Source: Chloroflexota bacterium | GTDB lineage: Bacteria > Chloroflexota > Chloroflexia > Chloroflexales > Chloroflexaceae | Assembly: GCA_030550625.1 (NCBI GenBank) | Contig: JAUQOZ010000066.1 | Span: 1-36,917 of the forward strand | Direction: 5' to 3' | DNA: 36,917 nt | In this document: positions 3,001 through 17,041 of the stretch, in pieces | Layout of the letters: every line of letters starts with the position of its first letter | Position numbering within the stretch: position 1 is the first letter of the stretch | Translations under genes and position numbers: made by a program | The notes under the pieces: model-generated | Told to the model about the DNA's origin: nothing | Databases searched by the model: none | What the model saw: the letters and a program-made list of their open reading frames with translations, nothing else

Positions 3001-4200
3001 ATGCGCACTCTGATCTTCACCGGAAAAGGCGGCGTTGGCAAAACAAGCGTCGCGGCAGCAACGGCCCTCCGGGCTGCGGATCGTGGCTTAAAGACGTTGG
3101 TGATGAGCACCGATCCGGCCCACTCGCTGGCCGACTCGCTCGATCTCGAGGGGCCGCTCGGCCCTGAACCCGTTCGGATCACCAAGAACCTTGACGCGCT
3201 CGAGGTCAGCATTTACCACGACATCGAGAGCAATTGGGGCATCGTGCGCGAACACTTCGCTCAGCTCATGGCCGAGCAGGGCGTGCAGGGCATTTTAGCC
3301 GATGAGATGAGCGTCTTGCCGGGCATGGAGGAGGCGTTTCCGCTCATCCGGATCAAGAAGCACAAGGAGCGCGGCGATTACGATCTGCTGGTGATCGACT
3401 GCGCGCCGACCGGAGAGACGCTGCGGCTGCTCTCGGCTCCCGAAACGTTCAAGTGGGCGATTAATATGCTGCGGGGCGCCGAGCGGTTTGTGATCAAGCC
3501 GATCCTCCGCCCGATGAGCAAGATTAATCCGACCCTCAATAAGATGGTCGCGCCGCCAGAGGTGTACGAGGCGGTTGATGATATGTTCCGCCAGTTGGAG
3601 GGCGTGACGGCGACGCTGGCTAACCCGCTTGAGACCTCGATCCGGTTGGTGATGAACCCCGAAAAGATGGTGATCAAGGAGAGCCAGCGGGCGTTGACCT
3701 ACCTGTCGATGTATGGCATGACCGTCGATATGGTGGTGGTCAACAAGATTTTGCCGCTCGATCAAGACAGCGGCTATCTGAACCACTGGCGCGATGTGCA
3801 ACAGCGCTATCTGCAAGATGTCGAGCACTCCTTTGTGCCGTTGCCCATCCGGCGGGTGCCGTACTACCCCGAAGAGGTGGTGGGGCTTGAGAAGTTGCGC
3901 CAAATGGGTGACGACATCTATGGCGACATGGATCCGACCGCTGTGCTCTACGATCGCGCGCCGCTTGATATTTCCAAGGTCGGCGATAAGTATTATCGGG
4001 TCAAGATCCGGTTGCCCTTTGCCGACGTTTCCCAGCTCGATCTGTATCAGAATGGGGATGAGCTGGTGGTGCAGATCGGCGATTTCCGGCGAGTGTTGAC
4101 GCTGCCGACCAGTCTGGCCGGCCTCGAAGCTGGTCAGGCTGAGATGGAGGGCGAGTGGTTGAGTGTGCCCTTCATGGCGCCGCAGATGGCGTCGCGCTAA
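3001..4200 (+). CDS. ArsA/Get3-like ATPase 1 with C-terminal HSP20-like domain
   Basis: A 399-residue deviant-Walker P-loop ATPase of the ArsA/Get3 family. The signature KGGVGKT is at 9-15, switch I contains STDPAHS with Asp38, and switch II is D-C-A-P-T-G at 133-138. The C-terminal 65 residues (from about 330) form a beta-rich module starting YYRVKIRLPF that matches the HSP20-like domain found on some ArsA proteins. The protein has essentially one Cys, inside switch II, and lacks the metalloid-binding cysteines of arsenite pumps; no arsB-like gene is nearby. It is therefore unlikely to work in arsenic export. Get3 relatives deliver hydrophobic proteins to membranes, and this one is the first gene before csmA. 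A role in chlorosome protein targeting is inferred. Confidence 0.85.
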   Translation: MRTLIFTGKGGVGKTSVAAATALRAADRGLKTLVMSTDPAHSLADSLDLEGPLGPEPVRITKNLDALEVSIYHDIESNWGIVREHFAQLMAEQGVQGILADEMSVLPGMEEAFPLIRIKKHKERGDYDLLVIDCAPTGETLRLLSAPETFKWAINMLRGAERFVIKPILRPMSKINPTLNKMVAPPEVYEAVDDMFRQLEGVTATLANPLETSIRLVMNPEKMVIKESQRALTYLSMYGMTVDMVVVNKILPLDQDSGYLNHWRDVQQRYLQDVEHSFVPLPIRRVPYYPEEVVGLEKLRQMGDDIYGDMDPTAVLYDRAPLDISKVGDKYYRVKIRLPFADVSQLDLYQNGDELVVQIGDFRRVLTLPTSLAGLEAGQAEMEGEWLSVPFMAPQMASR

Positions 4201-4283: not shown

Positions 4284-4526
4284 ATGGCGACGAGAGGCTG
4301 GTTCTCGGAGTCGTCGGCGCAGGTGGCGCAGATCGGCGACATCATGTTCCAAGGCCACTGGCAGTGGGTCTCGAATGCGCTGCAGGCCACCGCGGCCGCG
4401 GTTGACAACATCAACCGCAATGCTTACCCGGGCGTGTCCCGGAGCGGCTCGGGCGAGAGCGGCTTCAGCAGCAGCTCGAGCAATGGCTTCCGTCCGAAGC
4501 GCATCCGCTCGCGCTTCAACCGCTAG
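4284..4526 (+). CDS. csmA: Chlorosome baseplate protein CsmA precursor
   Basis: An 80-residue precursor. After Met removal the protein begins ATRGWFSESS, as in the purified C. aurantiacus protein. The amphipathic helix contains the G-H-W-Q-W motif with His25 (counting Met), the conserved BChl a ligand of CsmA proteins, and NRNAYPG follows near residue 50. The known mature Chloroflexus form is about 51 residues, so the Ser/Gly/Arg-rich tail here (about residues 52-80, ending RSRFNR) is a pro-peptide that must be removed by an unidentified protease. CsmA dimers form the paracrystalline baseplate that passes energy from BChl c to the membrane. The gene lies between a palindrome and a strong 3' hairpin, which probably set its high message level. 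Confidence 0.97.
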   Translation: MATRGWFSESSAQVAQIGDIMFQGHWQWVSNALQATAAAVDNINRNAYPGVSRSGSGESGFSSSSSNGFRPKRIRSRFNR

Positions 4527-4586: not shown

Positions 4587-5705
4587 ATGATTAACCTGCT
4601 CTATTACAGCCATACCACCGTTCCAGCTCACCTCGAAGAGATTACGCGGCTTGATGTGCTCGATCCTGATGAGCAGGTGCTGGTCGCGGTTGATGGCGTG
4701 CTGCTCGATCGGCAGGGGCGCCGGCTGAGCGGCCCCACGCTGCACGACTATTGCCTGATTACCGATTTGCGGGTGGTGTTGTGGGCGCGTGATTATGGGC
4801 GTCATCTGTGTTTTGCGTTTCCGTTGAGCGAATTGACCTTGATCGATGGCCGGGGCGTTGATCCGATTCACGGGATGGTGACGCTCGGCTTTAGCGCACC
4901 TGATGCCGAAGAGCAAGTCTTTACCCTCACGCTGGTGCCGCAAGCGTATGTGCCGGCGTTGATGATCTTGTTGCGCACGGCGGCTGAAACAGCGCGCGCG
5001 GCGTTGGCTGCCGGCATGGATGCCCGCCAAGCGGCGCCTGAGGTGATGACGGCGCTCGGCGCGGCGATTTATGGTTCCGAAGATGCGTTGCGTCCCGATG
5101 AAATGCCCTATCGTTGGCCCGGTGGTGCGCCCCGCACGCCGGCGACGCCAAATGCGCCCTTTGTGATTGATCCGGCGAATTTGCCGCCTAATCAAATCTT
5201 TACCGCCGGCCGTCTCGCCCGTTCAGCGTGGGATACCCTGCGCCGCACGTTGCGCGAGGCGGATTTGCCGTTTGACTTGAGTCCGGCCAGTATCCGTGAA
5301 TTGACCGAAGCAATCCGTGCTGTTAATGACTTAGTCCAAACTGTGGCCAATAATCCTGCTGCCCAGCAGATGGCGATGGCGTTTTTAAATCGCCAAGCGG
5401 CTGCGCGTCAAGCCCAAGCTGAACCGGCGGCGTCACCGGTCGTCGAGCCACCGGTGGCAGAGCCGCCTCCTGCGCGGCCGGCTGGGCCACGTTATCACGA
5501 AATACCGTTGCGCCGGCGCACTCCGGCGCCACCGGAAACGCCAGCGTCGCAACCGCCAGCGCCAATCCCGCTGGCCAAGCGGGCGCCATCCATCGAGATG
5601 CCGGATCGGCGTGAAATTCCGCTCCGCCGCCGGAGCGCGCCGGTTCGCCGCGCGCCGCTCGCAGCGTTGAGCGGTTCGGGTGATGCCGATCACGATCAAG
5701 CATAG
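4587..5705 (+). CDS. PH-like domain protein with basic Pro-rich tail, paralogue 1
   Basis: A 372-residue protein of unknown function. The N-terminal 130 residues have the pattern of a bacterial PH-like domain: a DPDEQVLVAVDGVLLD strand pair, an RRLSG turn, then LITDLRVVLWARD. The middle (about 205-275) is helical and amphipathic. The tail is Pro/Ala-rich and carries two copies of an EIPLRRR motif (about residues 310 and 345). The gene at 5749 encodes a clear paralogue with the same order. No signal peptide or membrane segment is visible. Lying directly after csmA, it could be a cytoplasmic-side chlorosome protein or assembly factor that contacts lipid or another basic-tail partner; this is inferred from context. 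The ATG at 4587 has a GGGAG site. Confidence 0.75.
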   Translation: MINLLYYSHTTVPAHLEEITRLDVLDPDEQVLVAVDGVLLDRQGRRLSGPTLHDYCLITDLRVVLWARDYGRHLCFAFPLSELTLIDGRGVDPIHGMVTLGFSAPDAEEQVFTLTLVPQAYVPALMILLRTAAETARAALAAGMDARQAAPEVMTALGAAIYGSEDALRPDEMPYRWPGGAPRTPATPNAPFVIDPANLPPNQIFTAGRLARSAWDTLRRTLREADLPFDLSPASIRELTEAIRAVNDLVQTVANNPAAQQMAMAFLNRQAAARQAQAEPAASPVVEPPVAEPPPARPAGPRYHEIPLRRRTPAPPETPASQPPAPIPLAKRAPSIEMPDRREIPLRRRSAPVRRAPLAALSGSGDADHDQA

Positions 5706-5748: not shown

Positions 5749-7086
5749 ATGAGCCCATTTCTCGGTGTCAATGTGAGCATGGCGAGCGTCGAGGAATTGC
5801 GCCAGCGCGATTTGCTGGACGAAGGCGAGACGCTGCTCGCTCTCTTCGATGGTACGTTGCTCGATGAGAATCGCCGCCGGGTTGGCGGTCTTGCGCTGGC
5901 TGATTTTGTCGCGTTGACCGACCGCCGGCTGATTCTGTGGGCGCGCGGCTTCTTTAACGATACCGTCGATGGTTTTCCTTGGAGCGATGTCGATGTGGTG
6001 CGCGCCGAGACATGGGATCCGTGGCATGGTCGCGTCAGCCTTGCGCTGCGCATTCCGGCGACGCCGCCGCGCAAGCGCCGCGTTGCACTCGGCGAGGTGC
6101 AAGACCCCGGCCAACCTGAGCGGGTGATTGTGAATACGCTCGATTATATGCCGGCGGAAGATGTCGATATGCTGGCCAAGATGGTGGCATGGGTCGGTGA
6201 CCAAGTGTTGGCTGGCGTCAGCGGTGAAGAGCTGGTGAAGGCCTTTGAGGCCGAGTTCCCAGCCGTGGAACGCAAGCCGCTCCCGCCGTTCTTTATGAGC
6301 GAGCCGGCTCCGCCGCCAATGCCGGAACCAGAGCCGAAGAAGCCGGCCAAGAAGCCGTGGTGGAAGTTTGGCGCTGCCGAGGAGGAAGAGCCTGCTCCCG
6401 CTTCACCCAGTAATCTGATCGCAGCCTACGAGAGCCAGCGCGGTGGCGCTCCGGCTGGCGCAGCGCCAGCGCCGGTTGGCCCGTTGCCAACCTTGCCCGA
6501 ACAACCCAATATGTACGAGGTGAGCCGGTCGTTGCGCTTGATGCTTGAGGTGCCACGCGGGTTGGCGCGCGGTCTGCGGCGGGCAAGCGAGATCGTGAGC
6601 GGCGCGACCGAGTTGCTCAACAATATGCAGGATCCGCGCGTGCGCCGTAATGCGATGCGCGGTATCTATTACGCTGCTGCCCAGCAAGAGGCGGAAGGCG
6701 GGCCGTTGGCTCCGGTGGGGCCAGTAGTGCGCGCTGCCGTCCGGTTTGCTGAACCACCCGAACAGCCACAAAGCGCCGAGCAACCGGTGCAGCGCCGGAT
6801 TGCGGTGCGGGCCACGGTACGGCAAGCAACGCCTTCGCCAGCGGCTGCTGAACCAGCGGCATCGCCGGCGCCGGCGGCTGAACCTGCCAGCCCGCAACCG
6901 GTGCGCCGCGCCATTAGCGTGCGCCGGGTTGAGCCGCCTGTCGAGGAGAATGGCTCGTCGATGCCGGTGCGCCGCGTGGTGGTCAATCGCACCGACCGCT
7001 CTGCCGCAGTCAGTGGCAGCGGCGCCGGTATGCCGGCGCGTGAGCCGCTCAATGGCCGATCGGATGATGAGCCGGAAGCGCAGTGA
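5749..7086 (+). CDS. PH-like domain protein with basic Pro-rich tail, paralogue 2
   Basis: A 445-residue paralogue of the preceding protein. The N-terminal domain aligns by eye: LLDEGETLLALFDGTLLDEN, a GGLALADF turn, then LTDRRLILWARG and WSDVDVVRAE. A Pro/Glu/Lys-rich linker (about 180-215) is followed by an amphipathic segment (about 255-310, with RGLRRASEIV and NNMQDPRVRRNA) and a long Ala/Pro tail with repeated basic motifs (RRIAVRA, RRAISVRR, VRRVVVN). No catalytic motif is visible. The two proteins probably arose by duplication and may form a heteromer. The position between csmA and the second ArsA-like gene points to chlorosome biogenesis, but this is not shown by sequence. AAGGAG lies 5 nt before the ATG. 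Confidence 0.75.
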   Translation: MSPFLGVNVSMASVEELRQRDLLDEGETLLALFDGTLLDENRRRVGGLALADFVALTDRRLILWARGFFNDTVDGFPWSDVDVVRAETWDPWHGRVSLALRIPATPPRKRRVALGEVQDPGQPERVIVNTLDYMPAEDVDMLAKMVAWVGDQVLAGVSGEELVKAFEAEFPAVERKPLPPFFMSEPAPPPMPEPEPKKPAKKPWWKFGAAEEEEPAPASPSNLIAAYESQRGGAPAGAAPAPVGPLPTLPEQPNMYEVSRSLRLMLEVPRGLARGLRRASEIVSGATELLNNMQDPRVRRNAMRGIYYAAAQQEAEGGPLAPVGPVVRAAVRFAEPPEQPQSAEQPVQRRIAVRATVRQATPSPAAAEPAASPAPAAEPASPQPVRRAISVRRVEPPVEENGSSMPVRRVVVNRTDRSAAVSGSGAGMPAREPLNGRSDDEPEAQ

Positions 7087-7133: not shown

Positions 7134-8357
7134 ATGACGCGAGTCATTATCTATTCCGGTAAGGGCGGTACTGGTAAGACGACGCTCTCGGCGGCGACAG
7201 CAGTGATGCTGGCGCAGTCTGGCCGCCGCACACTGGTGCTCTCGAGCGATCCGGCTCACTCGCTGGCCGATGTGATGGGGATACCGATCAGCCGCGATCG
7301 GCCAACACCGCTGGCTCCCCATCTCTATGGCCTCGAAGTGGATACGATCTATGAGTGGCGCCAGAATCTGGGCGGCTTTCAGCAGTTCGTGACAGCGACT
7401 TATTCGGCTCGTGGCATTGAACGCTCAACGGCTGCTGAACTGGCCAATCAGCCCGGTCTTGATGAAATCCTCGCGTTGCAACGGGTGATGGATGAAGCGC
7501 AGAGCGGTCGTTGGGATGCGATTGTGCTTGATACCGCGCCGACCGGCAATACCTTGCGCTTGTTGGCCTACCCCGAAATGATCATCGGCGGTGAAGCTGG
7601 AAAGCGGTTGTTCCGCGTCTATCGCGGGATCGCTAATGTTGCCCGCCCGTTCCGGCGTGATTTGCCTGATGACCGCTTCTTTGAAGAGGTGGGCAAGCTG
7701 CTCGAACGGATGGATCAACTGGCCAACTTTTTGGTCAGTTCGGCGGTGTCGGTGCGGTTGGTGCTGAATCCGGAACGCTTGCCGTTGCTTGAGACGCGCC
7801 GGGCCTATACCTTCCTCAGTCTGTATGGCCTGCAACTCGATGCGGTGCTAGTGAATAAGATTTTGCCTCACCGCACTGATCTCGGCCCGTACTTTGATTA
7901 CTGGGTCAATCTCCAGCAGCAGTATCTGGCTGAGATTGATGCGAGCTTTGCGCCGACACCGATCTTCCGAACGGTGTTGCAGGGTGGCGAACCGATCGGA
8001 GTGGATGCGCTGTTGCACGTTGGCCGGCTGACCTTCGGTGATGTCGATCCGGGGGCGCTGCTCTACGATGAACGGCCGATCTGGCTCGAACAGTGGAGCG
8101 AAGATGGCGAACCCGGCCAGTATGATCTTTGTTTGCGGTTGCCGTTCCTTGATGCCGGTGAGTCGATCGAAGTAAGCCATAGCGGTCCTGATTTGACCAT
8201 TTCGGTCGGGCGGATCGAGCGCACAATTGCCTTGCCGCGGGTATTGTACGACTGTGTCCTCGGTGAACATCGCTATGAAGATGGCGTGTTGCGACTAGCC
8301 TTCTACGAGGCCAGCGCCGCCCGCGCCAGCGGCAAACAGCAAGTCGAGGCGGCCTAA
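7134..8357 (+). CDS. ArsA/Get3-like ATPase 2 with C-terminal HSP20-like domain
   Basis: A 407-residue paralogue of the ATPase at 3001. The P-loop KGGTGKT is at 10-16, SSDPAHS marks switch I, and switch II is D-T-A-P-T-G at 133-138. An LVNKILP strand matches the VVNKILP of paralogue 1. The C-terminal module (from about 326, YDLCLRLPF onwards) is the same HSP20-like beta domain. All nucleotide-binding motifs are intact, so it should be an active ATPase. The metalloid-site cysteines of arsenite ATPases are absent. Get3-type enzymes work as dimers; with two active paralogues and one degenerate one in the cluster, heterodimers are possible. The gap to the upstream gene is 47 nt and to the next start 66 nt, consistent with one operon. 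Confidence 0.85.
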   Translation: MTRVIIYSGKGGTGKTTLSAATAVMLAQSGRRTLVLSSDPAHSLADVMGIPISRDRPTPLAPHLYGLEVDTIYEWRQNLGGFQQFVTATYSARGIERSTAAELANQPGLDEILALQRVMDEAQSGRWDAIVLDTAPTGNTLRLLAYPEMIIGGEAGKRLFRVYRGIANVARPFRRDLPDDRFFEEVGKLLERMDQLANFLVSSAVSVRLVLNPERLPLLETRRAYTFLSLYGLQLDAVLVNKILPHRTDLGPYFDYWVNLQQQYLAEIDASFAPTPIFRTVLQGGEPIGVDALLHVGRLTFGDVDPGALLYDERPIWLEQWSEDGEPGQYDLCLRLPFLDAGESIEVSHSGPDLTISVGRIERTIALPRVLYDCVLGEHRYEDGVLRLAFYEASAARASGKQQVEAA

Positions 8358-8423
8358 CGTGATTGCAGCCGCCTCTCCGTTGTCTATTCCGGTTGCATTG
8401 CGCACCGGTTGCGAGCACTCTGC

Positions 8424-9527
8424 ATGCGCACGCTGATCTTTACTGCCCATCATCAACTCCAACAGAGCGCGGCTGCGCTCGCGACGGCTTGCCACGCCGC
8501 TCGGCGTGGCTATCGCACCTTGGTGGCTTCGAGCGGCCCCGGCCATCTGATCGGTCATCTGCTACACCAGACACTTGGTTCGCGTCCGCTGGAACTTGAG
8601 CCGAACCTCGCGGCGATGGAGATACATCCCCACGAGGAGGTTGCCCGCCGCTGGGAGCAGGTGCGTCCGTCGCTGCGCAGCGGGCTGGTGGCCCGCCTGC
8701 GCGATCTTGGCCCTGATGAGCTACCGGCCTTCCCCGGCATTGATGCGGTGGCGGCGATGTTGGTCGCCGAACGCGCCCGCCAGTCGGGCCGGTTCGATCT
8801 GTTGATCCTCGATGGCCCGTCACCTGACGCGCTCATCCGGGCGTTGACGTTGCCTGATGTGCTGCGCTGGGCAGTGCGCCTGATCTTTGGCCTTGACCGC
8901 GGTCCCGGCAAGTCGCGCGCTTCGCAAGAGCAGGCGATGATTCCAGCAGCGATTGTGGCGCCTAGCGCGACCGCGCCCTTGCAAGAGTTGCGGATTGAGC
9001 TTGAGCAACAACGCGCCCGCCTCGAAACCGAGAGCGGGGCGCGGGTGCGGATGGTAGCGTTACCGCCAGAGTTGCGCTTGCCGCCGCTGCGTGCGGCGTT
9101 AACTGCCTTTGGCCTGTTTGGGTTGGCTAGCGATGAAGTAATTGTGAATGGCCAGCCTGACCAAGTTGATGACGAAAGCCGCCACGATTTCAGCCATGAA
9201 ACCAGCCGGGCGCGTCCGTTGTTGCGGATTGGTCAGCTTGAGCTGACGCCGGCCAATCGCGATACATGGGCTTTGCGCGGAGCGGCGCTCTACCGTGATG
9301 GTGATGTCTTTGCGTCTGAACCGCCGCGTCCTACCAGTAGCGAGCGCGATCTGCGCCTGTTGATTCCCTTCCTCGATCCCAAATCGCTCGATATTGCATT
9401 GGCAAGCGAAGAGGTCGTCGTCCAACTCGGCCAGTTGCGCCGGCATGTCTTGTTGCCGGGGTTGGTTGATGGCGGTCGCTTACGGGCGCGGGTCGAGGGT
9501 GAATTATTGCGGTTGTGGGTAGAGTAG
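8424..9527 (+). CDS. Degenerate ArsA/Get3-like protein 3 (pseudo-ATPase) with HSP20-like domain
   Basis: A 367-residue protein that starts MRTLIFTA, exactly parallel to paralogue 1, which supports ATG 8424 over the upstream TTG at 8409. The fold and length of the ArsA-like family are kept, and the C-terminal HSP20-like module (about 307-366, RDLRLLIPFLDP onwards) is clear. The nucleotide site is gone. Residues 8-15, where the paralogues carry the P-loop, read AHHQLQQS; switch I STDPAHS is replaced by SSGPGHL; and switch II D-x-A-P-T-G by D-G-P-S-P-D (130-135). The frame is open throughout, so it is a preserved pseudo-enzyme rather than a decayed gene. A structural or regulatory partner of the two active ATPases is the likely role (inference). 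Confidence 0.8.
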   Translation: MRTLIFTAHHQLQQSAAALATACHAARRGYRTLVASSGPGHLIGHLLHQTLGSRPLELEPNLAAMEIHPHEEVARRWEQVRPSLRSGLVARLRDLGPDELPAFPGIDAVAAMLVAERARQSGRFDLLILDGPSPDALIRALTLPDVLRWAVRLIFGLDRGPGKSRASQEQAMIPAAIVAPSATAPLQELRIELEQQRARLETESGARVRMVALPPELRLPPLRAALTAFGLFGLASDEVIVNGQPDQVDDESRHDFSHETSRARPLLRIGQLELTPANRDTWALRGAALYRDGDVFASEPPRPTSSERDLRLLIPFLDPKSLDIALASEEVVVQLGQLRRHVLLPGLVDGGRLRARVEGELLRLWVE

Positions 9528-9541
9528 CGAAGGGGGCGCCT

Positions 9542-10549
9542 ATGTCAGTGCTTGCCCAGCCGTTCCCGATCGAGCGACCGCCGGCGCGACCGATCGATGC
9601 GCCGCCAACGGCTAAGTATATTGAGTATGCCAATGAGGTGGCGACACGCCTTGCTGGCAAGTTGAGCGCCCGCGAACGGCGCCGGCTGGAAGGTGAACGC
9701 GCGCTCTTGGCCCGCGCCCGCTTTATCGAGTTGAACGGCGTGGTGCATCATTATCAAGATGTCGGGCCGCTCGATGGCGAACCGTTGCTGCTCATCCACG
9801 GCTGGGATTGTTCGTCGTTTTGGTGGCATCACGTGATCGATCCACTGGCGCAAGCCGGTTATCGCGTGGTGAGCTACGATTTGAAAGGGCACGGCTTTTC
9901 TGATAGCGATCCGCGCCAAGATTATACGGTGGCCGGGTTTAGCGCCGATCTGCAGGCGCTCTCGCGCGCATTGAATCTCGGTCCGGCTCACGTGGCCGCT
10001 TTCTCGCTCGGTGCGTTTATTGGCTTGCACGTGGCCGCTCATAACCCAGAATTGGTGCGCTCGCTGATCTTCTTTAACTTTAGCTTGCTGCCGTACAATA
10101 AGTTTGCTTCGCAGTTTGTGCCGCGGTTGCTCGATACCGTGTTTAACGGGGTGTTGCGCCCGATCGAGCGGCGTAATCTGTGGTGGCTGCCCTTTATCTA
10201 TGCCCGGCTAGTGATGGCGCAGAACACCCCATCCATTAGCGATATCCGGCTCGGCACGCTCGGTTTGCGCTATTGCGATCCGGCAGCCGTGCGGGTGTCG
10301 GCGACCGAATTGTCTCGTCCCGATATTTTGGCCGCCGTGGCCGAACAAGCCAAGATGATTCAGCAGCCGCTTTTGTTGGTGGCCGGCGCTAACGATCCGA
10401 TTATGCGGCCATCTGATGGGCGCAAATTGGTGGCGCTCGCCCCCAATGGTTCATTTTTAGAAGTGCCGAAGTGCGGCCATCTGATCTTGTTTGAATTGCC
10501 CGAGCACGTCATTCAAATTATGCGCCTCTTCTTGAAAGGCGTTCGCTAG
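9542..10549 (+). CDS. Alpha/beta hydrolase in the chlorosome cluster
   Basis: A 335-residue alpha/beta hydrolase. HGWDCSSFWW supplies the oxyanion segment (about residue 85), the nucleophile elbow is A-F-S-L-G-A with Ser155, where the first glycine of the usual G-x-S-x-G is Ala, and a C-terminal GANDPI (Asp) and CGHLILFE (His) complete a likely triad. The N-terminal 60 residues are an extra, charged extension before the core. ATG 9542 with a GGGGGC site is preferred over the in-frame start at 9515, which lies inside the upstream gene. The substrate is unknown; a lipid, a wax ester or a pigment ester is possible given the neighbours. It lies 14 nt after the degenerate ArsA-like gene and 12 nt before the next gene. 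Confidence 0.8.
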   Translation: MSVLAQPFPIERPPARPIDAPPTAKYIEYANEVATRLAGKLSARERRRLEGERALLARARFIELNGVVHHYQDVGPLDGEPLLLIHGWDCSSFWWHHVIDPLAQAGYRVVSYDLKGHGFSDSDPRQDYTVAGFSADLQALSRALNLGPAHVAAFSLGAFIGLHVAAHNPELVRSLIFFNFSLLPYNKFASQFVPRLLDTVFNGVLRPIERRNLWWLPFIYARLVMAQNTPSISDIRLGTLGLRYCDPAAVRVSATELSRPDILAAVAEQAKMIQQPLLLVAGANDPIMRPSDGRKLVALAPNGSFLEVPKCGHLILFELPEHVIQIMRLFLKGVR

Positions 10550-10561
10550 GGAGGTCGGTGT

Positions 10562-11443
10562 ATGCAGTTGTTGCTTCGTTCCGGCGGCCAACAAATGATC
10601 ATTGATATGGAGCGCGCTGATGACCGCCCGCTGTCGGTCGGCCAGTATACATACCGGCCCCGCCGGTTGGCCGGCAAAGTGCGCCGGCTGGTCGCCAAGA
10701 TGTGGCCTGATATGCCCTCGTCAGTGCTCGATGAGCGCCTGACCTTCGAGGCGCTCGATAACGGGCGCGAGACGGCGTGGGGCGATAGCGGCAGCTTTTC
10801 ACCGCGCTCTGGTTCGACCGTGCTGCTTGGGCGCTGGGATGAAGACGGCAGCGTGGGAATTGCCTTGCACGAGCTGGCCCATGAAATGCACCTACGCCAC
10901 GGTGGCTACGATGATAGCGATGGCGTGGTGCGCGAGGCGCTCGCGATGCTGGCTGAACGCGAGGCTGGCTTGCGCCGCACGTTTGAGCGCGAACCGTACC
11001 ATTCCGCGTGCCAGTTGATTGAGCAGCTCGAGGAGTTGCCGGCTTTTAGCCGGATGGCGTTCAGCAAGCGGTGGGCCGAGGTGGTAAGCGTGACGTCGGC
11101 GGCTGGGTTAGCCGATCTGGTTAACTACTATCTGGATCGCAGCGAGCGGTTGGGGTTGGCGCGTTGGCTTGATCGCCTGACGAAAAATGTTGATGTGCGC
11201 GATCAGTTGTTAGCCCGCTTGGCGAGCACATCGCTGCGTTACAGTTTAGATCTGCGTCGCCACCTGATTAAAAAGCTGGTGCGGTGCAAACCGGAAACGC
11301 CGGTGGAGCAACTCATGTATGTGCTTGACTCGATCGCCACGCTTGACCGGCGCTATCCCAATGATGATCTCGAGCGCATTATCAATTTCTGTTTCGCGCC
11401 GTATGTGCCGCAGCGTCGCCGTCTCTTCGCCTTTGGCTCGTGA
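10562..11443 (+). CDS. Unrecognised protein with HExxH zincin-like motif
   Basis: A 293-residue protein I cannot place in a named family. It contains H-E-L-A-H at 103-107 inside the strand-helix context GIALHELAHEMHLRHGG, and a Glu-rich helix REALAMLAERE about 20 residues later could supply a third zinc ligand, as in gluzincins. No signal peptide or membrane segment is visible, so it would act in the cytoplasm. The C-terminal half is helical with many Arg and Leu residues. CsmA needs removal of a C-terminal pro-peptide by a protease that is not known to me; this protein, eight genes downstream of csmA in the same run, is a candidate by context only. It could equally be a non-catalytic protein that keeps the motif by chance. 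Confidence 0.6.
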   Translation: MQLLLRSGGQQMIIDMERADDRPLSVGQYTYRPRRLAGKVRRLVAKMWPDMPSSVLDERLTFEALDNGRETAWGDSGSFSPRSGSTVLLGRWDEDGSVGIALHELAHEMHLRHGGYDDSDGVVREALAMLAEREAGLRRTFEREPYHSACQLIEQLEELPAFSRMAFSKRWAEVVSVTSAAGLADLVNYYLDRSERLGLARWLDRLTKNVDVRDQLLARLASTSLRYSLDLRRHLIKKLVRCKPETPVEQLMYVLDSIATLDRRYPNDDLERIINFCFAPYVPQRRRLFAFGS

Positions 11444-11458: not shown

Positions 11459-12235
11459 ATGAATCGCTTCGAAGAAGAAAACCCGACTGTTCGTTGGCTG
11501 CCCGGATTTGCGCGCCGGTGGTTTGGTCTGACCAATGAAGATCCCCGTCGCAGGATCAATGCACGGTATCAGTGGATGCCCAGTTGGTTAAAGCGTTTGT
11601 TGAATTTGGATGACGCACCAGTGCCGTATGCCGGCGAAGCGGAGCCTGCTGCGCCGAGCCGGTCATCGTATGGGTATACGCCGCCGCCACGCTCGTATAC
11701 GCCCGGTGCGGCCTCATACACCCCCGGCGCACCCTCGTTTACGCCGCGCAGCTTCGCCCCAGCAAGCTATCAGCCGGCCAGCGAGGAGGCTCCTTCCACA
11801 CCAGCCCGCCTCAGCCTCGCCGGTGATGAGTTGCCGCCTGATGTGCAGCCGATCGGCTATCTGCTGCGTTCGTATGCGCGTGGCGCGCTGCCGCCGCAGG
11901 GGCTTGAGGCCTTTACCCGCGAGGTGCGCACGACAACTGAGAAGGTGCTGAACTTCTACGGCCATTGGATTCGCTTCCAGACCGAGGAGTTGGTGCGCAT
12001 CGGTTGTGACCTGTTTAATGCCGCCGTTGATGCCTTGCCCGGCGAGAAGACCAAGCAACAGCCGCAGACAATCCGGCGGATTAAGGTGGTCGCTGATAAT
12101 GGTAATGGGAATGATGTCGCTTCTGCTGCGGCGGCGCCGGCCCAATCAATGCCATCGACAGTTCCTCCAGCCGCCGAAACGCCAGTGGCTGCGGATGAGC
12201 CTGAGTCTCGTTCCGAAGACAAAGATAAAGAGTAG
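11459..12235 (+). CDS. Pro/Ser-rich protein with a GHW helix
   Basis: A 258-residue protein of unknown function with three parts. An N-terminal basic segment (RWLPGFARRWFG) comes first. A low-complexity stretch (about 60-110) follows, with repeats of the type SYTPGA, SYTPGAP and SFTPRSF. A helical part (about 120-200) contains N-F-Y-G-H-W-I-R followed by an amphipathic segment ending F-N-A-A-V-D-A-L-P-G. The tail is Ala/Pro/acidic. The G-H-W plus downstream A-A-V-D pattern recalls the BChl a-binding helix of CsmA (G-H-W-Q-W ... A-A-V-D), but no other similarity is visible. It has no signal peptide or membrane segment. It sits 15 nt after the HExxH gene and 3 nt before the first tandem lipase-like gene. 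Confidence 0.65.
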   Translation: MNRFEEENPTVRWLPGFARRWFGLTNEDPRRRINARYQWMPSWLKRLLNLDDAPVPYAGEAEPAAPSRSSYGYTPPPRSYTPGAASYTPGAPSFTPRSFAPASYQPASEEAPSTPARLSLAGDELPPDVQPIGYLLRSYARGALPPQGLEAFTREVRTTTEKVLNFYGHWIRFQTEELVRIGCDLFNAAVDALPGEKTKQQPQTIRRIKVVADNGNGNDVASAAAAPAQSMPSTVPPAAETPVAADEPESRSEDKDKE

Positions 12236-12238
12236 ACT

Positions 12239-12922
12239 ATGCCCCGTCCGGTGGTGATTATGGGCGGGTGGCTGTCGTCACCCGCCGATTACTTCGGTAT
12301 GGCGCGCGTGCTAGCCGCGCCGCCATACAATCGGATCGTGTATGTGGTTGATTTCAGCCGGTTAGCATGGGCGCGCTTGCGCGATCCTGATTTCGGGCCA
12401 GCGCTTGATGCGCTCGCAGCGACGGTGCGGATTGCGCTCGCAGAAACCGGCGCTGATAAAGTAGACTTGATCGGCCATAGCGCCGGTGGCCGGATTGCGC
12501 GCGCCTATTTGTCTGATGAGCCGTATCAAGGGGTGCGCTACGCCGGCCATGAGGTGGTGGCAAGCTTAACCACCTTGGGCACGGCCCATGCCACGTCAGA
12601 GATCTGGGTGAAACAGTTTGCCGACTGGCTTGAGGCGCGCTATCCCGGCGCTGCTTTTCCTCACGTCAAGTATCGCGCTGTGGCCGGGAGGAGTGTGCGT
12701 GGCCGTCGTTTCGGCAATCCCGAGGAGATGATTGCCTATCGTTCCTATGAGGTTTCGTTCGGCGATGGGAATCTGATCGGCGATGGGATTGTGCCAACGG
12801 CAGCCTGCTATCTGGCCGGCGCCGACAACTTGATCTTAGAGGGTGCGCGCCATGCACCGTATAACGCGCCGGCGACGTGGTACGGCGCGCGGGATGTAGT
12901 GCCGCTGTGGTTTGAGGATTGA
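12239..12922 (+). CDS. Lipase-like alpha/beta hydrolase, tandem copy 1
   Basis: A 227-residue small alpha/beta hydrolase of triacylglycerol-lipase or cutinase-like type. It starts MPRPVVIMGGWLSSPADY, has the nucleophile elbow G-H-S-A-G-G with Ser81, and ends with the His-bearing GARHAPYN. The loop GDGIVPTAACYLAGA probably carries the catalytic acid. No signal peptide is visible. The neighbour at 12934 aligns along its whole length with Ser at the same residue number, so this is a tandem duplication. The start codon lies only 3 nt after the previous stop, and translation is probably coupled. The substrate is unknown; galactolipids, wax esters or other envelope lipids of the chlorosome are possible targets. 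Confidence 0.75.
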   Translation: MPRPVVIMGGWLSSPADYFGMARVLAAPPYNRIVYVVDFSRLAWARLRDPDFGPALDALAATVRIALAETGADKVDLIGHSAGGRIARAYLSDEPYQGVRYAGHEVVASLTTLGTAHATSEIWVKQFADWLEARYPGAAFPHVKYRAVAGRSVRGRRFGNPEEMIAYRSYEVSFGDGNLIGDGIVPTAACYLAGADNLILEGARHAPYNAPATWYGARDVVPLWFED

Positions 12923-12933
12923 TCAGGAGTGCT

Positions 12934-13647
12934 ATGGCCCGTCCGCTGGTGATTATTGGCGGTTATCTGACTAGTCCGAGCGATTTTGCGGCGCTGGCGC
13001 GGACGCTCGAACAACCACCGTTTGGTTTTCGCGTCTTCGTGACCCCGATCGGTCGTATGCGCTGGGCTTTAACCCGTGATTGGGATTTTCGGCCAGTGTT
13101 GCGGATTGTGCGCGACACGGTGGCTCGGGCCTTGCGCGAAACCGGCGCTGAAACCGTGACTATTCTGGCCCATAGCGTCGGTGGTACGGTAGCGCGCATG
13201 TATCTCGGTGATCAGCCGTACAAAGGTGAAATCTACGGCGGTCACCGGTTTGTGCATCACTTGATCATGCTCGGTACGCCGCACCATAGCCAAGAGTTCT
13301 GGACGCGCCAGACCGTCGGGTTTACTAATCGTTGTTATCCCGGCGCGTATTATGATCATATCCGCTATACCTCGATCATTGGCCGCAGCATTCAGGCCAA
13401 TCGGCAAGGACGCTGGGTTGAGCGGATGGCGTATAACAGCTACGTGCTGATCGACGGCCCTGCCGGCGCGCAGGCGTGGGGTGACGGGATTACAACGCTG
13501 ACCTGCGCAGCGCTAGCCGGCGCCGAGTATTTGGTCGTGCCCGGGTTGCATCACTCGCCCATCCACGGTCGTCCGTGGTATGGCGACCCGGAAGGGTTAA
13601 GAGACTGGCAACGAGTGTTGTTGGGATCCTCATCGGTTGTTGTTTGA
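12934..13647 (+). CDS. Lipase-like alpha/beta hydrolase, tandem copy 2
   Basis: A 237-residue paralogue of the preceding gene: MARPLVIIGGYLTSPSDF at the start, A-H-S-V-G-G with Ser81, GDGITTLTCAALAGAEYLV, and a C-terminal His in GLHHSPIHG. The first glycine of the elbow is Ala here. ATG 12934 with AGGAG at 12924-12928 is chosen over the in-frame start at 12919, which overlaps the upstream gene. The promoter of the next gene starts inside its stop codon. Function beyond a likely ester-hydrolase activity is not known. Confidence 0.75.
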   Translation: MARPLVIIGGYLTSPSDFAALARTLEQPPFGFRVFVTPIGRMRWALTRDWDFRPVLRIVRDTVARALRETGAETVTILAHSVGGTVARMYLGDQPYKGEIYGGHRFVHHLIMLGTPHHSQEFWTRQTVGFTNRCYPGAYYDHIRYTSIIGRSIQANRQGRWVERMAYNSYVLIDGPAGAQAWGDGITTLTCAALAGAEYLVVPGLHHSPIHGRPWYGDPEGLRDWQRVLLGSSSVVV

Positions 13648-13677
13648 AATGTCGCTGATTTGTACTATAATACAAAT
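13644..13677 (+). promoter_or_regulatory. Internal promoter with palindromic operator over the -10
   Basis: TTGAAA (13644-13649), a 16-nt spacer and a perfect TATAAT (13666-13671) form a strong promoter that overlaps the stop codon of the upstream hydrolase. The -10 is embedded in a perfect 7 bp inverted repeat, ATTTGTA (13658-13664) and TACAAAT (13671-13677), with a 6-nt spacer. A protein bound there would block the promoter. The predicted transcription start (about 13678) is within a few bases of the ATG at 13681, so this transcript would be nearly leaderless. It would drive the membrane protein, bchU, bchK, csmN and csmM. Confidence 0.75.
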
Positions 13678-13680
13678 TGC

Positions 13681-14184
13681 ATGAAATCATCGCACATTGA
13701 CCGGTTGATTCTGTACGCTATGGCGGCTGTGTCGGGTGTATCGCTTGCGTGTTATACCGCAGTGCTCTATCTCTGCCGGCAAGAGGTGAATACGCACCAT
13801 CCAGAGCGGGCAGCATTGCGCAATCGGTTAGCGAATATCGCGCATGCGCTCGATTGGCTGATGAACGTAATGGTCGCAGTGGTCGGGATTGGCCGGCTCT
13901 TTCGTGAAGAGCATTTTGGCGGGCAACACCAACCTCGCTGGTTGAAGATCTATTTTATGATCACTGGCCCGTTGCCAACCATCGGTATGGTTGGGGCGAT
14001 GATTACCGGCCATCGTTGGGGCGAGGCGATGCGTGATCATCCGCAGCAGCGCCGGTTACATCGCTTCTTTGCATGGCTGGGGTATGTCAGTTGGTGGCTG
14101 AGCTTTATTCCGATCTTCTTCCAGCCGTGGTTGAACCGGCAGGCGGCAGTATCTAAGCAGGGTTCAGAATCGGTTGTCTCTTAA
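13681..14184 (+). CDS. Small multi-pass membrane protein, unknown
   Basis: A 167-residue protein with about three or four hydrophobic segments: LILYAMAAVSGVSLACYTAVL (about 9-29), ALDWLMNVMVAVVGIG (about 52-67), IYFMITGPLPTIGMVGAMI (about 84-102) and FFAWLGYVSWWLSFIPIFF (about 124-142). Basic loops (HPERAALRNR, HPQQRRLHR) lie between them, and several His residues stand near the membrane edges. I do not recognise the family. The ATG at 13681 is preferred over an in-frame TTG at 13660 because the promoter -10 lies between them. As the first gene of the bchU-bchK-csmNM sub-operon it could have a role in pigment synthesis or chlorosome attachment to the membrane, but the sequence does not show one. 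Confidence 0.7.
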   Translation: MKSSHIDRLILYAMAAVSGVSLACYTAVLYLCRQEVNTHHPERAALRNRLANIAHALDWLMNVMVAVVGIGRLFREEHFGGQHQPRWLKIYFMITGPLPTIGMVGAMITGHRWGEAMRDHPQQRRLHRFFAWLGYVSWWLSFIPIFFQPWLNRQAAVSKQGSESVVS

Positions 14185-14216
14185 GTAACATCGCACTTGT
14201 GCGCGAGGGGGAACGC

Positions 14217-15281
14217 ATGACGACTTCACCTTCGGTTGAACCAACCACGACGGGCGCCGCGGCGCTTGAGCAACAAGACCTATTTGCCGCAACCAACCGC
14301 GCCTATGACATGGTGTTTAAGGGCACGGTGGATTTCTTCGTGATTAAGGCGGCAAAAGATTTAGGGCTGTTTGATCTGTTGGCTGCCGAACCGCGCACGC
14401 TGGCCGATCTGGCAACCTTGACCGAGACGGTGCCGCCGCGGCTCGAGAAGTTCTTGATTACGCTCGAGCAGGTAGGTCTGGCGGCGCGGCAAGATGATCG
14501 CTGGAAGCTGACCCCCTTCGCCGAGCAATTCTTTGCCGATCCCGAACGCCATCGCAATATGACGATGGTGCCGTTTGTGGATTATATTTCCGACCTAATC
14601 GAGAATTACTACCTGCGGTTGGCTGATGTGGTGCGCGGGAAGGTTGACTTTACCAGCATTGTGCCGCATCCGCCGCGCACTCGCGAAGATAGCCTGTTTT
14701 ACGAGACGTTGCACCGCTCGAATATCCAGCTCTTCGTCGAGTTGTTGGTCAAGCGGGCCCGGCTGGCCGATGTGCAGATGCTGATCGATGTTGGCGGCGG
14801 CATTGGTGATATTGCGGCGGCCCTCTGTCAAGCCTTCCCCAATCTCAAGGTGACGTTGATCAACTTGCCTAGTGCGCTCGATCTGGTGCGCGAGAATGTG
14901 GCGGCCAAAGGTCTGAGCGACCGGATTACGCCGGTGGCGGTCGATATGTACCGCGAGCCGTATCCTCCCGGCGATGCGGTGCTCTTCTCGCGCATTCTCT
15001 ACCCGATGAATGCGCAGTTCTGCTCGATGTTGCTCAAGAAGGCCTACGATGCGTTGCCGAGCGGCGGGAAGGTGCTGATCCTCGATATGGTGATCAGCGA
15101 TCCGCAGCATCCAAACTACGATTATCTGACCCATTACCTATGCGCGATTGGGATGGGCTTCTCGGTGCTTGAGTTCAAGGATCATGCGATCTACCCTGAT
15201 CTCCTGCGCCAGATCGGGTTTACCGACGTAACCTTCGATGAGGGGTACGAACACGTTTTGTATCAGGCTGTCAAGCCGTAA
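14217..15281 (+). CDS. bchU: BchU-type bacteriochlorophyllide C-20 methyltransferase
   Basis: A 354-residue SAM-dependent O-methyltransferase-fold enzyme. The N-terminal winged-helix dimerisation domain (about 30-110) contains DFFVIKAAKDLGLFDLL and a DLATLTETVPPRLEKFL segment. The Rossmann core has motif I D-V-G-G-G-I-G-D at 191-198, an acidic residue after the next strand, and GGKVLILDMVISDP. In green bacteria BchU methylates C-20 of the chlorin ring, the step that makes BChl c rather than d. The neighbouring bchK supports this assignment over a CrtF or other O-methyltransferase. ATG 14217 has a GAGGGGGAA site; the GTG at 14199 lies just before it and is less likely. Confidence 0.8.
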   Translation: MTTSPSVEPTTTGAAALEQQDLFAATNRAYDMVFKGTVDFFVIKAAKDLGLFDLLAAEPRTLADLATLTETVPPRLEKFLITLEQVGLAARQDDRWKLTPFAEQFFADPERHRNMTMVPFVDYISDLIENYYLRLADVVRGKVDFTSIVPHPPRTREDSLFYETLHRSNIQLFVELLVKRARLADVQMLIDVGGGIGDIAAALCQAFPNLKVTLINLPSALDLVRENVAAKGLSDRITPVAVDMYREPYPPGDAVLFSRILYPMNAQFCSMLLKKAYDALPSGGKVLILDMVISDPQHPNYDYLTHYLCAIGMGFSVLEFKDHAIYPDLLRQIGFTDVTFDEGYEHVLYQAVKP

Positions 15282-15341: not shown

Positions 15342-16259
15342 ATGATTTCGACTGAACAGCACGTCTCGCTCAGCCGAAAAATCCGGGCCCATATCGAGCT
15401 TGCCGATCCGGTGACGTGGATTTCGCCGGTGCTGGTCTGTTTCTGTGGCGCACTGGCTTCAGGCTACGAGCGAGGCTTTGACTGGACGCGGCCCGATCAC
15501 TGGTGGCTTATGCTGTTGGGCGCGTTGATGACCGGCCCGCTCGGCACCGGCTTTAGCCAGAGTATTAACGATTATTTTGATCGTGAACTGGATGCGATCA
15601 ACGATCCGCAACGCCCGATTCCGGCTGGGATCATTACGCTGAATGAGGCGCGCTGGAATTGGATTGTACTCGGCACAGCAACTATGCTGGTGTCGCTGGT
15701 CTTTGGCCAGCCGTTGATCGTCTTCTTTGCTTTTGTCGGTATCGTGCTGTCAGTCATTTACAGCATGCCGCCGATTAAGCTGAAGAAACATTTTTGGCTG
15801 GGGCCGCCGGCAGTCGGGTTGGGTTACGTTAGTATGAGCTGGATGGCCGGCCATCTGATCTTTGCGCCGCTGACGTGGCAAAGCGTATTGGTGGCGTTGA
15901 TCAATGGCGGTTTGGCGGCTGGCTTGCTCTTTCTCAACGATATTAAGAGTGTCGAGGGTGATCGCAAGCTGGGTCTGAAATCGCTCACGGTTGCGATCGG
16001 TGTGCAGCGCACGCTAATTGTGGCTTATGCAACGATTAACGGCTTCGAGGCAATGCTGATGATATTGGCTTTGGTGTGGGGGCAATACTGGGTGGCGGCG
16101 TTTATTCTGCTGGCATTGGTAGTGCCGATCTATAATCAGATTAAGCTCTACCGTGAACCAAACCAGCAAAATTACGTGCGTTACCTGCTGGCTTCCAACC
16201 CATTTGTGGCCTTAATCCAGATTGTCTCAGGTTTTCTGGTGGGCGGCTATTTTGGCTGA
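15342..16259 (+). CDS. bchK: Bacteriochlorophyll c synthase BchK
   Basis: A 305-residue polyprenyltransferase of the UbiA family with about eight or nine membrane helices. The first Asp-rich motif N-D-Y-F-D-R-E-L-D is at 76-84, followed by the INDPQRPIPAG signature of chlorophyll synthases. The second motif N-D-I-K-S-V-E-G-D is at 199-207. BchK esterifies bacteriochlorophyllide c with its long-chain alcohol, the last step before pigment packing in the chlorosome. The related BchG adds phytol or geranylgeraniol to BChlide a. The position between bchU and csmN favours BchK. The 60-nt gap to bchU and 19-nt gap to csmN fit one transcript. Confidence 0.88.
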   Translation: MISTEQHVSLSRKIRAHIELADPVTWISPVLVCFCGALASGYERGFDWTRPDHWWLMLLGALMTGPLGTGFSQSINDYFDRELDAINDPQRPIPAGIITLNEARWNWIVLGTATMLVSLVFGQPLIVFFAFVGIVLSVIYSMPPIKLKKHFWLGPPAVGLGYVSMSWMAGHLIFAPLTWQSVLVALINGGLAAGLLFLNDIKSVEGDRKLGLKSLTVAIGVQRTLIVAYATINGFEAMLMILALVWGQYWVAAFILLALVVPIYNQIKLYREPNQQNYVRYLLASNPFVALIQIVSGFLVGGYFG

Positions 16260-16603: not shown

Positions 16604-17041
16604 ATGAGCAATGAGACGACCAACGAGCGTGATGGCTTGTTTGAGCTGGCGGCTGGCTTTGTCGGGGGGGCAACCCGGATTGGCCTGACGGTTGCTTCGG
16701 TGCCGCTGGTGCTGCTGCCGCGCAATTCGCGTCGCCGCGTGCGCCGGGCGATGGCTGAGGTGGCGTTGGCAGTGGTGGCATTTCCGAAAGAGCTGGCCAA
16801 TATTTCCGAGCGGGTGGTTGATGATATCGTCGCTGCTGAGCCGCCGCAGATCTCGCTGCCGAGCCCGAAGCAGGTTGGCGAGCAGGTGCGCTCGTTTACC
16901 GAGCGACTGTCGCGCGCGGCGGAAGAGCTTGGCACTAGCTTTAGCCGGGCTGCCGGACGGGCTGCCGATGCGGTTGAGCAGGGTGCAGCCAAGGTTGATG
17001 AGTGGGTTGAGACGCCGCCCAAGACGCCGCCGGCGCCGTGA
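16604..17041 (+). CDS. csmM: Chlorosome envelope protein CsmM
   Basis: A 145-residue protein (about 15.5 kDa, known to run near 18 kDa in C. aurantiacus). Residues 8-75 repeat the CsmN pattern: FELAAGFVGGATRIGLTVAS, PLVLLPRNSRRRVRRAMAEV, FPKELANISERVVD. The extra C-terminal part is an amphipathic helix (about 90-130, SFTERLSRAAEELGTSFSRA) and a Pro-rich end. It is a structural protein of the chlorosome envelope. A run of seven G (16664-16670) lies in the early coding part and keeps the frame. AGGAGGAG precedes the start. It is the last gene before a strong hairpin, so it ends the chlorosome unit. Confidence 0.88.
   Translation: MSNETTNERDGLFELAAGFVGGATRIGLTVASVPLVLLPRNSRRRVRRAMAEVALAVVAFPKELANISERVVDDIVAAEPPQISLPSPKQVGEQVRSFTERLSRAAEELGTSFSRAAGRAADAVEQGAAKVDEWVETPPKTPPAP

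Follow-up and report, generated by a model that had tools for sequence, protein, structure and literature searches.

A selectively maintained, Get3d-like pseudo-ATPase in the chlorosome operon of Chloroflexaceae

The window, that is, the whole stretch of 36,917 nucleotides analysed, belongs to a genome whose nearest relatives are Chloroflexus islandicus and Chloroflexus MAGs. It contains a chlorosome operon, all genes of which lie on the + strand with a spacing of -13 to 83 nt, including two overlaps. The first gene, arsA1 (3001..4200), encodes a Get3d-type ATPase and is followed by csmA (4284..4526; PF02043, 8e-31), the gene for the BChl-binding protein of the chlorosome baseplate. Next are the paralogues orfB (4587..5705) and orfC (5749..7086), which have no assigned function and no match in Pfam or NCBIfam. 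Their products are candidate chlorosome proteins, adjoining csmA even in a genome of the same class and another order (G335, see below). The likeness between the two lies in the N-terminus (38% over 92 aa), and both have Pro-rich tails. A second Get3d-type ATPase gene, arsA2 (7134..8357), precedes psA (8424..9527), the subject of this analysis. Every sequence of these two ATPases has its P-loop (24/24 distinct arsA1 and 30/30 arsA2 sequences), both switches and the A-loop intact. The end of psA overlaps by 13 nt with abh1 (9515..10549; PF00561, 8e-30), the first of three alpha/beta hydrolase genes. Then follow orf7 (10562..11443), conserved in the operon, and the fast-evolving orf8 (11459..12235), neither with an assigned function, the hydrolase genes abh2 (12239..12922) and abh3 (12919..13647), and orf11 (13660..14184), which encodes a small protein with hydrophobic stretches. 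The series ends with bchU (14199..15281; TIGR02716, 592 bits), for bacteriochlorophyllide d C-20 methyltransferase, and bchK (15342..16259; TIGR01476 chlorophyll synthase, 427 bits), for BChl c synthase, which sits behind bchU as in C. aurantiacus (PMC3150298). An ORF of 145 aa behind bchK (16604-17041) is a CsmM/CsmN candidate by position only.

The operon, arsA1-csmA-orfB-orfC-arsA2-psA-...-bchU-bchK, is conserved across the csmA-bearing Chloroflexaceae. The order from arsA1 through csmA, orfB, orfC, arsA2, psA, abh1, orf7 and orf8 to abh2 is found again in the Chloroflexaceae loci that were compared, with abh3, orf11 and bchU absent from some of them. The window order also matches that of C. 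aurantiacus, which runs from csmA (Caur_0126) to bchU (0137) and bchK (0138) (PMC3150298); counting from csmA, psA would be Caur_0130. A literature search with the presumed C. aurantiacus locus tags and with chlorosome plus ArsA/Get3 returned nothing on psA. Nothing points to arsenic resistance as a function: the annotated genes around psA include none for it, and no ArsA-pump signature was found. A tail-anchored client encoded within the operon was considered and rejected: none of the operon proteins has a single C-terminal TM helix, so a classical tail-anchored client is not evident.

The psA product is a putative pseudo-ATPase of 367 aa that combines the ArsA/Get3d fold with a C-terminal alpha-crystallin (HSP20-like) domain. 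The open frame extends from 8409 to 9527 (372 aa), with a conserved ATG start codon at 8424 (MRTLIF...). In Pfam, the protein matches ArsA_ATPase (PF02374, 4e-24) from profile position 15 onwards, past the P-loop, and ArsA_HSP20 (PF17886) at 3.8e-7, above the cut-off of that family. The alpha-crystallin domain occupies about codons 303-367 (9330..9524; PF17886 on residues 313-367 of the 372-aa frame). The frame is thus full-length and the HSP20-like domain retained, as the preliminary description of this DNA had it. The same cannot be said of the nucleotide-binding site. The former P-loop (codons 8-15, 8445..8468) reads AHHQLQQS; in the alignment, TAHHQLQQSA of psA stands against SGKGGTGKTT of arsA2 and TGKGGVGKTS of arsA1, HHQLQQS replacing the core KGG[VT]GKT. 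Orthologues were gathered from whole genomes within the order. In the 32 distinct sequences (12 genera), residue 14 is Gln in 27 and Arg in five but never Lys, and Ser15 is found in 27. A GK[ST] motif within the first 45 residues occurs in 0/32 psA sequences and in 0/26 sequences of psB, an unlinked relative described below, as against 83/83 active paralogues (24 arsA1, 30 arsA2 and 29 of two further paralogues), so its loss reflects neither chance nor sequencing error. The deviant Walker A motif, with both lysines (the second may be Arg), is likewise absent (0/32 psA, 0/26 psB). In the former switch I (codons 38-42, 8535..8549), GPGHL replaces DPAHS: the catalytic Asp is Gly in all 32 psA orthologues and in 21/26 psB sequences, and His41 is retained in 31/32 psA. 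The former switch II (codons 130-135, 8811..8828) reads DGPSPD for DTAPTG; its core is gone, while Asp130 is retained in 30/32 and Gly131-Pro132 in 32/32. The A-loop (NKILP) and the stretch behind it are missing, and no psA orthologue has a CxxC zinc motif (0/32). The earlier claim that all nucleotide-binding motifs have been replaced therefore holds for the P-loop and for the Asp of switch I, but is slightly too strong for switch II, which has been remodelled with its Asp kept. Motif loss on this scale predicts that psA has no ATPase activity.

Conservation is found elsewhere in the protein. A signature shared by psA and psB, DxxRWxxRLxxGLDRGPGrSxxS...P (codons 145-174, 8856..8945), lies in the helical client-binding region. 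Residues common to both proteins, which active ArsAs have rarely or not at all, fall mostly between positions 137 and 190 (L137, D145, R148, R152, D158, G162, S167, P174, Q187 and R190), and arginines 148, 152, 159, 190 and 197 are conserved in psA. In all, 86 psA positions are at least 94% conserved, and the frame is open across the 12 genera. Within Chloroflexus (Nei-Gojobori, 8 sequences, 28 pairs), dN/dS is 0.027 for psA, as against 0.022 for arsA1, 0.019 for arsA2 and 0.035 for bchK; with a median dS of ~1.5, synonymous sites are near saturation and these ratios are rough, yet far from one. The pN/pS ratio is 0.061 over the first 40 codons and at most 0.13 in every 40-codon block. Between genera psA evolves faster than its neighbours: its identity to the copy in the window is 46-67%, that of arsA1/arsA2 71-88%. 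P-loop loss common to all 32 orthologues, a dN/dS of 0.027 and a place kept in a conserved operon agree with the preliminary description of psA as a selectively maintained pseudo-ATPase, a reading that the sequence comparisons support. Neither of the two findings named there as contrary to it, an orthologue with an intact P-loop or a dN/dS near one, was encountered.

The distribution of psA follows phototrophy and, less strictly, the chlorosome. Both csmA and psA were found in 33/82 genomes of the order; 30 genomes have both, and reaction-centre genes are present in all 33 genomes with psA. Nearly every csmA-bearing Chloroflexaceae genome has two Get3d-type ATPases and one pseudo-ATPase in its csmA operon. 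Three psA genomes gave no csmA match: G020, which is 71% complete and in which the psA contig begins just before arsA2; G025, which is 84% complete and has psA at a contig end; and G019, a phototroph that yielded no match for csmA, bchK, arsA1 or arsA2. The G019 orthologue (L056:8093-9196; about 45-47% identity) lies at an unrelated locus. Conversely, three genomes have csmA without psA. In G029 the contig ends just past arsA2 and in G031 it breaks downstream of csmA, so that both absences are probably assembly gaps. In G038, by contrast, the operon is intact and arsA2 (end L094:9249) is followed directly by abh1 (start 9323); this clean gap (L094:9249-9323) represents either a natural deletion or the state before insertion of psA. 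The link of psA to the chlorosome is thus not absolute, with G038, G019 and G335 as exceptions. G335, which we presume may be a Chlorohelix-like bacterium, shows the same succession of arsA1 (61%), a csmA-like gene (31%), orfB and orfC (L148:8406-14360), with an arsA2 orthologue (56%) elsewhere in the genome. A P-loop is present in each of its four ArsA proteins, and no pseudo-ATPase was found in this genome. Because G335 has the core without a pseudo-ATPase, arsA1-csmA-orfB-orfC looks like the ancient part of the locus, to which psA was added later. In a PF17886 search of Chloroflexota, ArsA-type alpha-crystallin domains occurred in 216/251 genomes, including families without reaction-centre genes, and the combined architecture is therefore not confined to phototrophs.

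The window genome encodes six ArsA-type proteins, and one that is not linked to the operon, psB (G000:C273:9456-10559, locus L002), is also a pseudo-ATPase. The psB family is set apart by score (>350 bits; no other protein exceeds 240). It was found in 41/82 genomes of the order, all of which have reaction-centre genes except G029 (csmA present, 88% complete), and in none outside the order among 400 genomes drawn from the phylum; psB thus occurs only in phototrophic Chloroflexales. These include Roseiflexus-like phototrophs (a name inferred from reaction-centre genes without csmA), which have a single active ArsA and neither arsA1 nor arsA2. A short-chain dehydrogenase gene adjoins psB in two checked loci, L078 and L060 (psB loci, L060-L079), and a lyase/fumarase gene is its immediate upstream neighbour in L071. 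The two pseudo-ATPases are 28-35% identical and share the Get3d-like architecture and the client-domain signature; unlike psA, psB lies outside the chlorosome operon and has a glycine-rich loop in some members. Since the loop persists in these members (TGNGGTGIALA, TGSGGIGISVA) although neither lysine does, loss of the lysines appears to have preceded that of the glycines.

The origin of psA was assessed in a tree from which the four catalytic motifs had been cut out. Together, psA and psB form one side of a branch with 99.8% support. Descent of psA as a decayed tandem copy of arsA2 or arsA1 was rejected by the AU test (psA+arsA2, p-AU 0.011; psA+arsA1, p-AU 0.024). Addition of the divergent Get3d proteins of Nostoc and Arabidopsis, which have very long branches, lowers support for psA+psB to 66, as against 99.8 when they and the motif columns are left out; a single origin of the two is therefore likely but not proven. 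On these trees, psA is likely to belong to an older branch of pseudo-ATPases within the Get3d family, made up of psA and psB.

The conservation of psA without its ATP-binding parts suggests a new task in antenna construction and not decay. In phototrophic Chloroflexales, the pseudo-ATPase branch has shed the two catalytic lysines together with the Asp of switch I. From genomic context and fold, we infer the following function. Since psA retains the fold of Get3d along with the helical domain for client binding and the alpha-crystallin domain, but not the engine, an ATP-driven cycle is presumably impossible, and the protein may serve as a holdase, scaffold or adaptor that needs no nucleotide. 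Its client would be hydrophobic and chlorosomal, whether protein, lipid or pigment. The protein would work alongside its operon neighbours ArsA1 and ArsA2, which depend on ATP, and may hand the client over to them or form a complex with them, in this way contributing to chlorosome assembly. On balance, we consider it probable that psA is a Get3d-branch pseudo-ATPase of the chlorosome operon with such a role. More tentative, and somewhat short of probable, is the wider scenario in which the pseudo-ATPase branch of Get3d arose in phototrophic Chloroflexales, psA was recruited to the csmA operon, and psA, ArsA1 and ArsA2 came to form a dedicated machine for chlorosome assembly. The main new result is the context: a chlorosome operon and an older pseudo-ATPase family of phototrophs. 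Budding and aggregation models of chlorosome assembly were still being weighed in a proteomics paper of 2022 (PMC9316378), and Get3d was tied to photosynthesis in 2023 with no known native client (PMC10248533). A csmA operon with Get3d-type proteins ties the question of chlorosome assembly to that of the Get3d client.

Other readings of the same data assign psA different partners or ligands. The protein could be a stand-alone carrier, in which a homodimer holds a small hydrophobic molecule (a BChl c precursor, carotenoid, quinone or glycolipid) in the Get3d chamber and needs neither nucleotide nor partner. Consistent with this are the molecules of about 750 Da that co-purify with AtGet3d (PMC10248533), the presence of bchU, bchK and three alpha/beta hydrolases in the operon and of no tail-anchored protein, the conserved arginines of psA, and the retention of psA in G019 without ArsA1 or ArsA2. 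However, G019 also lacks csmA and bchK, so that the ligand, at least there, would not be chlorosome-specific, and the reading is unlikely. An asymmetric heterodimer of psA with ArsA2 or ArsA1, having one working ATP site and timing client release, was suggested by the preliminary description, which envisaged pairing with the active paralogues; we give it only a small probability. The genes are adjacent in one operon, PDB 6bs3 is a two-protein ArsA-like entry (Rv3679 with 'Anion transporter'), and P-loop NTPases of the ArsA/Get3 class are dimeric with a lysine acting in trans (PMC10248533). Against it, psA has no trans-acting lysine, and a mixed dimer would weaken the partner's site too. Moreover, strict co-occurrence with an active partner was not found. 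G038 has arsA1 and arsA2 without psA, and G019 has psA without either, which breaks the pattern in both directions; psB is present in Roseiflexus-like genomes without arsA1/arsA2. Because of this distribution, obligate pairing of psA with ArsA1 or ArsA2 is not supported; a facultative complex in Chloroflexus is possible. Far less probable is cryptic binding, at a remodelled site (Gln14-Ser15, His41 and Asp130), of a nucleotide or some other phosphate-containing ligand: the frequent retention of these residues (27/32 for Gln14 and Ser15, 31/32 for His41, 30/32 for Asp130) would fit, but neither lysine is left, the glycines of the P-loop have disappeared, all 32 orthologues carry Gly for the Asp of switch I, and there is no A-loop. 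That psA is a former ATPase drifting to a pseudogene is scarcely credible and is rejected, its faster evolution between genera than arsA1/arsA2 and its absence from G038 being outweighed by the 86 conserved positions, the frame open in 12 genera, pN/pS values of at most 0.13 per block and a dN/dS close to that of its active neighbours.

Several known systems bear comparison with psA. With the ArsA arsenite pump ATPase, psA shares the superfamily (PF02374) but has a single nucleotide-binding half and no P-loop; its score against the pump model TIGR04291 is 18 bits (cut-off, 650), with one half instead of two. The BagAB proteins (Rv3679/Rv3680, PDB 6bs3), two ArsA-like proteins in one solved entry, provide a precedent for hetero-assembly; neither of their models (BagA, BagB) recognises psA. 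ArsA1 and ArsA2 have the same fold, alpha-crystallin domain and operon as psA, but their P-loop, switches and A-loop are intact. The closest known proteins are those of the Get3d family (AtGet3d, 8elf; NosGet3d/All4481, 3igf and 8egk). The best PDB sequence match of psA is NosGet3d (3igf/8egk, 2e-17), and the top Foldseek matches are 8egk, 3igf and 8elf, obtained with a low-confidence model (11-row alignment, mean pLDDT 51, pLDDT <50 for residues 133-270) of which the fold match alone is used. The best NCBIfam match is the NosAFP equivalog NF050088, at 84 bits below a cut-off of 325. Like psA, Get3d proteins combine the ArsA/Get3 fold with a C-terminal alpha-crystallin domain, have no CXXC motif and are linked to photosynthesis, and some members have a degenerate A-loop and switch I. 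In the account of Get3d given in PMC10248533, the proteins bind tail-anchored clients and have a hydrophobic chamber, and their P-loop is well conserved, with the lysine kept in green nonsulfur members; the text searched contains no mention of chlorosomes or of a P-loop-less branch. As described there, Get3d has Walker A (Lys, Arg in Nostoc) and ATPase activity, whereas psA and psB have no Walker A. Because the full definition of Get3d fails on this motif, psA is called here a pseudo-ATPase branch of Get3d, in which a natural mutation would separate client binding from ATP hydrolysis within the Get3d fold.
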